Source of the DNA: Gluconobacter albidus
GTDB lineage: Bacteria; Pseudomonadota; Alphaproteobacteria; Acetobacterales; Acetobacteraceae
Direction of reading: 5' to 3'
Assembly (NCBI RefSeq): GCF_002723915.1
Contig: NZ_BEWL01000001.1
Location: 434,001 to 498,000 of the forward strand
Length of the DNA stretch: 64,000 nt
The notes beneath the pieces are model-generated. The model did not search any database. It saw only the letters and a list, made by a program, of their open reading frames with translations, and had not been told where the DNA came from. Positions 5,997 to 9,704 of the stretch are shown in pieces (the stretch's first letter is position 1; the number at the start of each line of letters is the position of its first letter). A program made the translations under genes and the position numbers.

Positions 5997-7355
5997 TCAT
6001 GCCGCATTCAATGGAGTAGTTTGCGGAACCGTCTGCATGATCTGTGCGAGCTGTTCAAAAGCCTCCGCACGCGTAGAACGCTCGTTCCGCCCCTGAGACA
6101 GGAACTGGTTCAGTCTGGGCATCAATGCGATGGCCTCGTCAACCTCGCGATCCGTGCCTGGCTTGTAAGCCCCCAGCCGGATCATGTCCGCCATACGCTG
6201 ATAGGTCGCCATCGCCGCACGCGCGCGCTGGGTCAAAGCGTTTTCTTCCGGGGAGTTGCACCCCGGAACCGCACGGGACAGGGAGCGCAGGACATCAATG
6301 GCGGGATAACGTCCCTGCTCGCCGATTTTGCGATCAAGAATGATATGACCGTCCAGAATACCGCGCACCGCGTCCGCAACCGGCTCGTTCTGATCGTCGC
6401 CTTCCACCAGAACAGTGAAGAGAGCCGTAATCATCCCCTTATCAGGATATCCCGGTCCTGCACGTTCCAGAAGCCGGGGCAGTTCGGCAAACACCGAAGG
6501 CGGATAACCCCGCGTCGCAGGAGGTTCTCCCGCAGACAGACCGATTTCACGCAGCGCCATACAAAACCGCGTCACACTGTCCATCAGAAGCAGAACCGAC
6601 TTCCCCTGGTCCCGGAAATACTCCGCGATTGCCATGGCAGACAGGGCCGCTTCACGACGCATCAGCGGCGGTGAATCCGACGTTGCGATCACCAGGACGC
6701 TCCGGGCCAATCCTTCGGGGCCAAGATCGTCTTCAATGAATTCACGGACCTCGCGTCCACGCTCACCCACGAGCGAAATCACAGCGACATCGCATTCCGC
6801 CCCCCGTGCGAGCATGGAGAGCAGGGTCGATTTTCCGACACCCGACCCGGCGAAAAGTCCAAGCCTCTGGCCACGACGACACGTCGCAAACGCATCAAGA
6901 GCCCGCACCCCAAGATCAATTCTCTCTCCCAGCCGCGCCCGGCTTGCCGCGTTGGGCGGCGGACATTGGATCGCCTGACGTTTGCTCGCCGGCCACAGAG
7001 GCCCTTTTTCATCAATCGGCTGCCCCAGCGGATCCACCACGCGTCCCAGCCAGCTCGAATTGATACCCAGGCCGCCGCTTTGACGACTGAGAGGAATTCT
7101 GGCCTCGCAACCCGGGCCAATTCCATCCAGCGCACCAAAAGACATCAGCCGCGCAACATCCCCCTGAAATCCAACAACCTCTGATTGTACTAGGCGGCCA
7201 TCACGCGCCTTAACCGCGACTCGATCTCCGATCGTGATGAATCCATCGAGTCCAATAACGGTCATGCAGAGACCCACAACGTCCTTCACGCTTCCTACAA
7301 CCCAGTCACACGTGAAGTTCGTGAGCTTTTCAAGCAGTTTGGCGTAATCGCTCAT
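5997..7355 (-). CDS. fliI: Flagellum-specific ATPase FliI
   Basis: A 452-residue F1-beta-like ATPase that energises flagellar type III protein export at the cytoplasmic face of the basal body. It shows the N-terminal beta-barrel (about 20-95), Walker A G170-SGVGKS-T177, the SLVGERGREVREF catalytic-glutamate strand, Walker B VLLLMDSVTRF and the DGHIILDRKIGEQGRYPAIDVLRS arginine-finger region typical of FliI rather than of ATP synthase beta. Length fits. It is the first gene of a fliI-fliJ unit, divergent from ctrA across a 189-base region that holds a CtrA box, which fits CtrA control of flagellar genes in alphaproteobacteria. Confidence 0.95.
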   Translation of the reverse strand: MSDYAKLLEKLTNFTCDWVVGSVKDVVGLCMTVIGLDGFITIGDRVAVKARDGRLVQSEVVGFQGDVARLMSFGALDGIGPGCEARIPLSRQSGGLGINSSWLGRVVDPLGQPIDEKGPLWPASKRQAIQCPPPNAASRARLGERIDLGVRALDAFATCRRGQRLGLFAGSGVGKSTLLSMLARGAECDVAVISLVGERGREVREFIEDDLGPEGLARSVLVIATSDSPPLMRREAALSAMAIAEYFRDQGKSVLLLMDSVTRFCMALREIGLSAGEPPATRGYPPSVFAELPRLLERAGPGYPDKGMITALFTVLVEGDDQNEPVADAVRGILDGHIILDRKIGEQGRYPAIDVLRSLSRAVPGCNSPEENALTQRARAAMATYQRMADMIRLGAYKPGTDREVDEAIALMPRLNQFLSQGRNERSTRAEAFEQLAQIMQTVPQTTPLNAA

Positions 7356-7417: not shown

Positions 7418-7455
7418 TTAAGATGAGCTTAATGTTCCCCTTTAACGAGAATAAT
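7418..7455 (+). promoter_or_regulatory. CtrA box with promoter, fliI-ctrA intergenic region
   Basis: TTAA (7418-7421), seven bases, TTAA (7429-7432) is a perfect copy of the CtrA consensus TTAA-N7-TTAA. A third TTAA lies at 7442-7445. Seventeen bases after the second half-site is AATAAT (7450-7455), a good -10 box, so the CtrA site sits where the -35 of a ctrA-directed promoter would be, as at promoters activated by CtrA. Expected transcription start near 7462, 112 bases from the box to the ctrA ATG. The same site lies 63 bases upstream of fliI on the other strand. No GANTC methylation site is visible in 7356-7544. Confidence 0.75.
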
Positions 7456-7544
7456 AATGACATTTTTACGATTTTTGATCCATATCTATCGACAGGCACA
7501 ACCTTGGGTAGTAACCATTGGTTCACCAAGCCGGGAGTTGAAAC

Positions 7545-8288
7545 ATGCGTATCCTTCTTGTCGATAGCGATCAGTCCGCCGCCGCCACGTTATCCCAGAC
7601 CCTGCGTAACGCGTCCTTTACCGTTGATCATACGCCCTCTGGCGAAGAGGCCATCGAGATGCTGCGTCACTACGACTATGACGTGGTTGTGCTCGAACTG
7701 ATGCTGAACGATCTGGAAGGATATGAAGTAATCCGGCGTGTCCGGGCTGCGCGTATCACGACGCCGATCCTTGTTCTGTCGGCCCTGCTCCGCTCTCAGG
7801 CCAAGATCCGGGCCTTCTCCATGGGCGCCGACGATTACATGACGAAACCCTATGACGCAGGCGAACTGGTCGCCCGTCTTCAGGCCGTCATGCGGCGCTC
7901 CCGGGGGTTTGCCGAGCCGAAGCTGCGGGTAGGTAATCTGGAGCTGGATCTGAACGGCAAAAATGTCACTGTCGATGGGGGCGCACTGCACCTGACAGGC
8001 AAGGAATATGCCATTCTGGAACTGCTGGTGATCCGTAAAGGGTCCGTCCTGACCAAGGACGCGTTCCTCAATCACCTTTATGGCGGCATCGACGAGCCGG
8101 AAATGAAGATCATTGACGTCTTCATCTGCAAACTGCGCCGGAAGCTACAGAATGTTGGCGCAGGCAACCTGATTGCCACGGTCTGGGGTCGTGGTTACAT
8201 CCTGCGGGAAGACGATGTTGCCGAAACGGTTTCCCTCGCAAGCCTGCCCTCCCAGGTCGCCGCCCCCATCGTGGAAGCCGCCGTCTGA
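7545..8288 (+). CDS. ctrA: CtrA cell-cycle response regulator with Glu at the phosphorylation site
   Basis: A 247-residue OmpR-class regulator. The winged-helix part is nearly diagnostic for CtrA: LTGKEYAILELLVIRKG, LTKDAFLNHLYGGIDEPEMK and IIDVFICKLRRKL. CtrA controls division, flagella and replication in alphaproteobacteria. In the receiver, the phospho-acceptor Asp is replaced: YDYDVVVLELML places Glu at residue 51 (codon GAA, 7695-7697), exactly where Caulobacter CtrA has Asp51. The acidic pocket is also altered (D7-S8-D9), while the conserved Ser79 and Lys101 (TKP) remain. The C-terminus ends AAV instead of the AA degron of Caulobacter. Start ATG 7545 has GGGAG eight bases upstream. A perfect CtrA box lies upstream, so autoregulation is likely. 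Confidence 0.93.
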   Translation: MRILLVDSDQSAAATLSQTLRNASFTVDHTPSGEEAIEMLRHYDYDVVVLELMLNDLEGYEVIRRVRAARITTPILVLSALLRSQAKIRAFSMGADDYMTKPYDAGELVARLQAVMRRSRGFAEPKLRVGNLELDLNGKNVTVDGGALHLTGKEYAILELLVIRKGSVLTKDAFLNHLYGGIDEPEMKIIDVFICKLRRKLQNVGAGNLIATVWGRGYILREDDVAETVSLASLPSQVAAPIVEAAV

Positions 8289-8345: not shown

Positions 8346-9704
8346 TCAAGCATGGGCAATGGCGCGAATGATATCGCAGACATGATCCACCACTTCATGG
8401 ACGAGCGCTTCATCTTCCGCTTCGACCATGACGCGGATCAGCGGCTCCGTTCCGCTGGCCCGCAGAACAAGACGGCCACTCCCGGCCAGGCGTTCATCCG
8501 CCCAGGCCTTTGCAGCAGCAAGGTCCGGGCTGCCCATCGGGCTGGCTCCTGAATAACGGACGTTTTTCAGGAGCTGGGGATACGGCGTGAAAAAACGGCA
8601 GATTTCACTGGCCGATCGCTTGGTTTCCACAGATACGGCCAGAACCTGCAACGCAGCGATCAGGCCATCTCCCGTTGTGGCATAATCCGACAGCACCATA
8701 TGTCCAGACTGCTCCCCCCCAAGATTGGCCCCAATCTCGCGCATCCGCTCCACAACATACCGGTCACCAACTGATGTCCGCTGAAGCTCAAGACCCTTTT
8801 CTGCCAGAGCTTTTTCCAGCCCCATATTGGACATGACGGTCGTGACCACCGTGTTGCCACGCAACCGGTCATGCTGCTTCCAGAAGGAAGCGATCAGACC
8901 AATGATCTGGTCACCATCAACAAGATCGCCGTTTTCATCTGCAATCAGGACGCGATCCGCATCGCCATCCAGAGCAATGCCGAAATCCGCACCATGCTCC
9001 CGAACCGCCGCACAAAGCGTTTCCGGATGGGTGGACCCCACGCCATCATTAATATTCAGGCCGTCCGGCTCACAGCCGATCTTGATGACTTCCGCACCCA
9101 GTTCCCACAACGCCTTGGGCGCTACCCGGTATGCTGAACCGTTGGCGCAATCAATGACAATCTTCAGGCCGTCCAGACGCAATCCACGCGGGAAAGACGC
9201 CTTTGCATTCTCGATATAACGACCAGCCGCATCCGTCAGACGTGAAGCGCGCCCAATCCGTTCGGGCGAAGCCAACCGGGCCGAAAGATCCTGAGCCATC
9301 AGGTCCTCGATTTCGCCTTCAACCTCGTCCGACAGCTTGAAACCGTCCGGCCCAAACAGCTTGATGCCATTGTCGGTGAAGGGATTATGGGACGCTGAGA
9401 CCATGACCCCAAGATCGGCCCGGAGAGAACGTGTCAGCATGGCAATGGCAGGAGTGGGCAGCGGACCGACCAGAATGACGTCCATCCCGGCCGAGAGAAA
9501 ACCTGCAACCAGAGCACATTCCAGCATATAGCCGGAAAGACGCGTGTCCTTGCCCAAAACAACGCTGTGCCGGCGATTCTGGCTGCGCATGAAATACAGG
9601 CCGGCCGCCTGCCCCAGTCTCTGCGCGATCTCAACCGTCATGGGCGCGGTATTGGCCGTTCCACGGATGCCGTCAGTACCGAACAGAGACCTCTTGGTGG
9701 CCAT
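8346..9704 (-). CDS. glmM: Phosphoglucosamine mutase
   Basis: A 452-residue alpha-D-phosphohexomutase that interconverts glucosamine-6-phosphate and glucosamine-1-phosphate on the route to UDP-GlcNAc for peptidoglycan and LPS. N-terminal [11 protein letters not shown] is the GlmM signature; the phosphoserine loop [12 protein letters not shown] places the active serine at S105; the metal loop is [10 protein letters not shown], the sugar-binding loop GGEQSGHM, and the phosphate-binding end [14 protein letters not shown]. Length is standard. It lies downstream of ftsH behind a terminator, the ftsH-glmM order being common across bacteria (with folP sometimes between, absent here). Confidence 0.96.

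Follow-up and report, generated by a model that had tools for sequence, protein, structure and literature searches.

The CtrA protein encoded in the window, a stretch of 64,000 nucleotides from Gluconobacter albidus, lacks both the phospho-acceptor Asp51 and the complete acidic pocket of CckA-ChpT-controlled CtrA proteins, and carries Glu at position 51 and Ser at position 8 instead. It is probably, as judged from its sequence and those of its relatives, an acetic acid bacterial orthologue whose receiver has become a pseudo-receiver and which regulates independently of phosphorylation. Among bacterial master regulators controlled by a phosphorelay, CtrA is the model case; here, a cultivable and industrially used bacterial group seems to have dispensed with its phosphorylation, and the relay persists in near relatives. 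The acetic acid bacterial protein would represent a master regulator changing its control mode within one family, and it allows a direct test of what phosphorylation adds to CtrA. The features of the locus are given below by their positions in the window.

5997..7355, minus strand: fliI, encoding the flagellar export ATPase and divergent from ctrA (PF00006, PF18269, synteny)
7418..7432, plus strand: exact TTAA-N7-TTAA putative CtrA box between fliI and ctrA (motif search)
7545..8288, plus strand: ctrA, 247 aa, receiver and winged-helix DNA-binding domain (ORF reading, Pfam, NCBIfam)
7551..7880, plus strand: CtrA receiver domain, residues 3-112 (PF00072)
7563..7571, plus strand: codons gat agc gat of D7-S8-D9, the acidic pocket, in which Ser stands in place of D8 (ORF reading, relatives)
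7695..7697, plus strand: Glu51 codon GAA, replacing the phospho-acceptor Asp (ORF reading, relatives aligned)
7779..7781, plus strand: Ser79 codon, switch residue kept (ORF reading, relatives)
7845..7847, plus strand: Lys101 codon, kept (ORF reading, relatives)
7983..8204, plus strand: CtrA winged-helix DNA-binding domain, residues 147-220 (PF00486)
8346..9704, minus strand: glmM-type phosphoglucosamine mutase (Pfam, synteny)

The initial annotation had named the protein (MRILLVDSDQ...YDYDVVVLELMLNDL) CtrA from its letters alone, and this identity is borne out by several lines of evidence. Pfam finds PF00072 and Trans_reg_C (PF00486), as expected of CtrA orthologues, and the top NCBIfam model is NF045991 CtrA at 324.2 bits, which is below the model cut-off of 350. 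The protein shares 45% identity with the solved CtrA receiver 4qpj_C, and in family-wide trees of 121 and 181 rows, which were built with the active-site columns left out, it branches among CtrA proteins with Asp51. The nearest titled CtrA, from G. cadivus, is 96% identical. It is the single CtrA of the window genome; a second, intact copy was sought and rejected, the next best of 16 matches being only 36% identical, and a plasmid search with the ctrA locus gave no match.

Reading of the ORF confirmed the residues reported at the outset, namely, Glu51 encoded by GAA and a D7-S8-D9 pocket with S79 and K101 kept; the loss of D8 is added here to that description. By alignment, CtrA E7, D8, D51, S79 and K101 correspond to CheY D12, D13, D57, T87 and K109, and D8 would be the counterpart of D13, the main Mg2+ ligand. 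Because D51 and D8 have both been lost from the receiver, the usual route of phosphorylation is, as read from these residues, closed to the protein, and the site of an E51D version would still be disabled by S8.

Mapped across acetic acid bacteria, Glu51 is natural, lineage-wide and conserved. Asp51 is not the prevailing state of the close relatives: of the 26 titled loci from acetic acid bacteria in which position 51 could be read, 23 have Glu and the other three Ala; two further titled loci, B. dulcis and Asaia astilbis, are partial. The Glu51 loci belong to Gluconobacter (12/12 loci compared, the window and 11 others, with S79 and K101 kept in this genus), Neokomagataea, Tanticharoenia, Brytella, three Asaia, Acidomonas, Acetobacter musti, two Acetobacteraceae strains and two Bombella; Ala51 occurs in Bombella ESL0385, B. 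saccharophila and Parasaccharibacter apium. Asp51 is found in seven loci (L057-L063) from bog and other metagenomes, titled Acetobacteraceae, Rhodospirillales or, once, Acidobacteria. When family genomes and titled loci are pooled, with some species counted twice, Glu51 is encoded by GAA in 43 and by GAG in 19 of 62 loci, and an isolated mutation, chance or a sequencing error is thus ruled out by the relatives and by the use of two codons.

The phosphotransferase ChpT and the integrity of the CtrA site were compared in a family sample of 249 genomes, of which 208 gave a CtrA match at E 1e-55; CtrA-like loci were obtained from 186, 181 of them usable. ChpT (PF10090) is matched at E 0.001 in 157 of the 249 genomes, 150 of these over the family cut-off. 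At the same threshold, no PF10090 match was found in the window genome, with the Caulobacter control positive, or in any of the five genomes of its genus, the window genome included. With ChpT-bearing defined as a PF10090 E below 1e-5, and an intact CtrA site as D51 and K101 together with acidic residues at 7 and 8, the site is intact in 92 of 93 ChpT-bearing genomes among the 181 CtrA read. At least one site residue is lost in 73 of the 88 genomes without a clear ChpT (65/73 with no match and 8/15 with a weak match); the other 15 keep an intact site (8 with no match, 7 with a weak one). Residue 51 in the 73 genomes without any ChpT match is E in 41, D in 21, R in 6, H in 2, and A, N and S in one each, and in the 15 with a weak match D in 10, E in 2, R in 2 and A in 1; many Asp51 rows without a clear ChpT have lost the acid at 7 or 8, or K101. 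The sole ChpT-bearing exception is G133 (L333), with E51 and an intact pocket, in an assembly that is 88% complete.

On the tree of 181 rows, the window protein falls in a group of 58 rows without a clear ChpT (support 89), and other site losses lie elsewhere, including an Arg/Ser51 group with the pocket gone. By parsimony, site competence changes 10 times (53 to 63 times in 20 shuffles) and the E51 state nine times, reversions included; ChpT changes 18 times, a number inflated by weak matches and incomplete assemblies. Independent-pairs tests of co-loss were not significant on the 121-row tree (two supported pairs, median p 0.5), and on the 181-row tree five supported pairs gave a median p of 1, with some pairings opposite. 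Asp51 is also present inside the E51 clade, in L164 and L219 (genus g60) and L163 and L166 (genus g47), where D8 and K101 are still lost, and these are apparent reversions of residue 51 alone. The Arg/Ser51 loci L198-L206 (genera g68, g96, G023) lack the acidic pocket, while their DNA-binding domain is highly conserved (mean pairwise identity 0.85 over nine rows). A ctrA orthologue was not found in G029 and G116 (genus g30) or in G100, G157 and G200 (genus g100), all from assemblies 98-99% complete.

For the kinase of the relay, a Caulobacter CckA sequence served as query, and hybrid kinases were found with it in all 18 genomes tried. In the kinase tree, four kinases of ChpT-bearing genomes group with the Caulobacter CckA query (support 100/98); against the CckA model, three of the clade's members reach 442, 490 and 412 bits, 126 to 174 above the next non-CckA model, and one member matches a PDB entry named CckA. 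The window genome has four hybrid-kinase matches, of which three were long enough for the tree and the fourth is partial, and none of the three placed falls inside the CckA clade. One of them, G000:C2:414037-415131, is, together with a G215 kinase, the sister of the CckA clade (92/91) on a long branch. Its receiver-kinase-receiver architecture is unlike that of CckA, and its 291.5 bits against the CckA model are close to, and 11 bits above, those against the next model (280.6). The other two prefer PRK13557 over CckA (354 to 294 and 512 to 266 bits). Across the 121-row set, a CckA profile value of 1e-119 or lower is reached in 44 of 52 ChpT-bearing genomes and 2 of 69 others, in a scoring that covered five candidates per genome and, therefore, may include misses; the best value in the window genome is 2e-103. 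As far as these comparisons go, CckA in the window genome appears not clearly present rather than proven absent. The loss of CckA-ChpT control over the window CtrA, put forward in the initial annotation, is supported as very likely: the genome yielded no ChpT, and its kinases placed in the tree all fall outside the CckA clade, although a sister hybrid kinase exists. The same region of the genome (L257, G000:C2:411500-416500) carries two tandem histidine kinases, each with a receiver, which resemble a pair in G215; the second of the tandem is the CckA-clade sister.

Among other cell-cycle regulators, neither SciP (PF06627) nor RcdA (PF07323) was matched above the cut-off in any of 48 genomes, including nine that bear ChpT, with the Caulobacter control positive; a SciP-like match in G037 (5.8e-4) was rejected as below the cut-off. 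GcrA (PF07750) is present in 47 of the 48 genomes; G029 and G100, in which no ctrA was found, have it. The absence of SciP and RcdA from the nine ChpT-bearing genomes places their loss before, or apart from, the appearance of E51. The proposed link between E51 and a simplified cell cycle is thus weak, with SciP and RcdA missing beside ChpT too and GcrA kept. Two single-domain receivers (C1:576461 and C1:581226) were considered as DivK or CpdR and rejected, since by reading they belong to a chemotaxis cluster.

The surroundings of ctrA differ between the two groups of genomes. On the side opposite to fliI, glmM, ftsH, tilS, cpoB and pal follow ctrA in 6/6 acetic acid bacterium loci and 0/4 ChpT-bearing loci, and fliI adjoins ctrA in 4/6 and 3/4, respectively. 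In ChpT-bearing genomes, chpT is often near ctrA, at about 6 kb in G003, G011 and G205 and about 2 kb in G102; in G003 and G011 ctrA separates it from fliI, whereas in G102 it is found on the same side of ctrA as fliI, and in G003, che-like genes stand, by reading, between ctrA and chpT.

An exact TTAA-N7-TTAA box, as at 7418..7432, is expected 0.03 times per window and occurred in 3 of 100 shuffles. Its spacing is kept in 12/12 Gluconobacter loci, exactly in three and with one second-half mismatch (CTAA or TGAA) in nine, and fliI is, judging from the position of the box, likely its second target. Genome-wide, N7 spacing was compared with N8 spacing, an imperfect reference in that it gives a 12-base period; the N7/N8 ratio of 0.66 in genomes without ctrA was used as the baseline. 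The window genome has 24 N7-spaced and 11 N8-spaced boxes. The 11 E51 genomes with fliI beside ctrA give 206:175, against 195:296 in the five genomes without ctrA (p 2.9e-5); three of the 11, which are Neokomagataea-like, show no N7 enrichment (38:43, 30:46, 20:31), and the other eight give 118:55, a split chosen after seeing the data. N7 is not enriched in 27 E51 genomes without fliI beside ctrA (1148:1728) or in five A/H/N51 genomes (225:339), and is enriched in nine Arg/Ser51 genomes (77:51), seven Asp51 genomes without ChpT (73:51) and 14 ChpT-bearing genomes (64:39). Some of the 19 N7 boxes listed outside the ctrA locus of the window genome are inside ORFs; genes close downstream of such boxes include dnaG, dprA and a GGDEF-EAL gene (Pfam), and, by reading, a fliO-fliP-like pair, whose fliO-like protein has no Pfam match. 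The PAS-GGDEF-EAL gene at L291 (G000:C4:44300-46900) begins 48 bases past a CtrA box. Besides the box near ctrA, strong conservation is also seen at 7508..7534 of the window (GTAGTAACCATTG...TTCACCAA); this stretch lies about 11-37 bases before the ctrA start and does not match TTAA-N7-TTAA.

Both domains of the window CtrA are, by their substitution rates, under strong purifying selection: in pairwise comparison of the 12 Gluconobacter loci, the receiver has a dN/dS of 0.037 (65 pairs) and the DNA-binding domain one of 0.026 (66 pairs), at a mean dS of about 1.1, which is near saturation. Mean pairwise identity is 0.50 for the receiver and 0.70 for the DNA-binding domain in 39 E51 rows, compared with 0.65 and 0.73 in 52 ChpT-bearing rows; by this measure, constraint in E51 rows is relaxed on the receiver and hardly on the DNA-binding domain. 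The receiver fold is predicted to be intact, as the AlphaFold model is confident there (pLDDT, taken in blocks of ten residues, is 91-96 for residues 1-80 and 82-92 for residues 81-120) and superposes on 4qpj_C with 1.0 A rmsd over 118 columns. Structural neighbours of the model are 2hqr, titled a phosphorylation-independent orphan regulator, which we take to be HP1043, together with CosR and RitR.

Under phosphorylation-independent control, the receiver might serve as a fixed dimerisation module, and in Gluconobacter Glu51 might favour the DNA-binding-competent state. CtrA activity would then be set mainly by the amount of protein, through autoregulation at the box and perhaps proteolysis, and the role of the protein might be basal regulation of flagellar genes and of a few DNA-related ones, not that of a phospho-oscillating cell-cycle switch. 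Counted against this reading are the CckA-sister kinase, the 15 intact-site genomes without a clear ChpT, G133, the non-significant pairs tests, the E51 genomes without box enrichment, and the occurrence of cckA without chpT that Brilli et al. 2010 report for this part of the order. Another kinase, or acetyl phosphate, might be thought to go on phosphorylating the protein, given at least four hybrid-kinase-like matches in the window genome, one of them sister to CckA, but with D51 and D8 both gone this is extremely improbable. It is just as hard to credit a decaying relic or a sequencing error: 27 E51 genomes without fliI beside ctrA lack box enrichment, and ctrA was found in neither of the genus g30 genomes searched, but for Gluconobacter this view is already contradicted by dN/dS of 0.037 and 0.026 and by Glu51 in 12/12 loci.

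The proposal of the initial annotation, that Glu51 holds the receiver in a phosphorylated-like state and makes CtrA permanently as active as CtrA~P, deserves more weight and is a real possibility, if short of an even chance. It is favoured by the retention of Glu with both codons (43 GAA, 19 GAG), by the nine E51 changes on the tree, and by S79 and K101 being kept in Gluconobacter, but D8 is lost, and the title of Siam and Marczynski 2003 states that Glu gives essential activity without increased DNA binding. As ChpT-less relatives have Ala, His, Asn, Arg, Ser or Asp at 51, phosphate mimicry is not a general principle; nor does it seem to be required in general, since pocketless Arg51 relatives keep a conserved DNA-binding domain (0.85) and box enrichment. 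What stands of the proposal is a natural, conserved Glu51, and it is plausible that Glu contributes to an active-like state in Gluconobacter, where it is conserved. Other aspartate-less OmpR/PhoB regulators are described as gated by other inputs, and a pseudo-receiver gated in this way, whether by a partner protein, by redox or by a small ligand, would fit the strong constraint on the receiver, the structural neighbours 2hqr, CosR and RitR, and the one GGDEF-EAL gene with a CtrA box upstream; the analysis of the window CtrA turned up neither an input nor a partner or ligand site, and we consider such gating unlikely.

Relative to known systems, the preferred reading of a phosphorylation-independent CtrA sets the window CtrA apart from the Caulobacter crescentus relay, with which it shares the receiver and winged helix, the TTAA-N7-TTAA box, the flagellar neighbour and the fit to 4qpj_C; it has, however, no acceptor Asp and no D8, and its genome yielded no ChpT, no kinase inside the CckA clade and no SciP or RcdA family match. 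The aspartate-less OmpR/PhoB regulators (2hqr, CosR, RitR) likewise keep the receiver fold without a working phosphorylation site, but they are separate lineages, whereas the window CtrA derives from a phosphorelay regulator that near relatives keep. CtrA alleles used in the laboratory include the phosphomimetic D51E and the non-phosphorylatable D51A (PMC12186491, PMC6363796), and in the model of PMC6363796 unphosphorylated CtrA activates gafA in Rhodobacter capsulatus. The window CtrA shares the residue change of the laboratory allele D51E (PMC12186491), but here it is natural, lineage-wide and accompanied by the loss of D8 and ChpT. A degenerate relay in many Rhodospirillales, with cckA present and no chpT, is described in passages of Brilli et al. 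2010 (PMC2877005), and those of PMC8116508 (2021) give chpT, cckA and divL in 27-36% of Rhodospirillales genomes; the passages of both make no mention of residue 51 or the receiver pocket. The suggestion by Brilli that another phosphotransferase may stand in for ChpT is ruled out as an explanation of the window CtrA, in which the acceptor Asp is gone. Among open-access titles, abstracts and passages, no report of CtrA residue 51 in acetic acid bacteria was found, and a search of that literature listed no paper on ctrA essentiality in Gluconobacter.

As to how this state arose, D51E might have freed CtrA from the relay, which then became dispensable, with ChpT lost and the pocket decaying and drifting to A, H, N or R; we offer this order of events tentatively and hold it to be rather doubtful. 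If true, nature would have taken apart a master cell-cycle relay, and would have done so repeatedly, by means of a textbook laboratory allele. Possible frozen intermediates with E51 and an intact EDD are G133 (ChpT present, no CckA-profile match at 1e-70, assembly 88% complete), G009 (weak ChpT match) and Acetobacter musti. In other lineages, genera g18, g54 and g56, some of the pocket is gone with D51 still in place, and a second route therefore exists.
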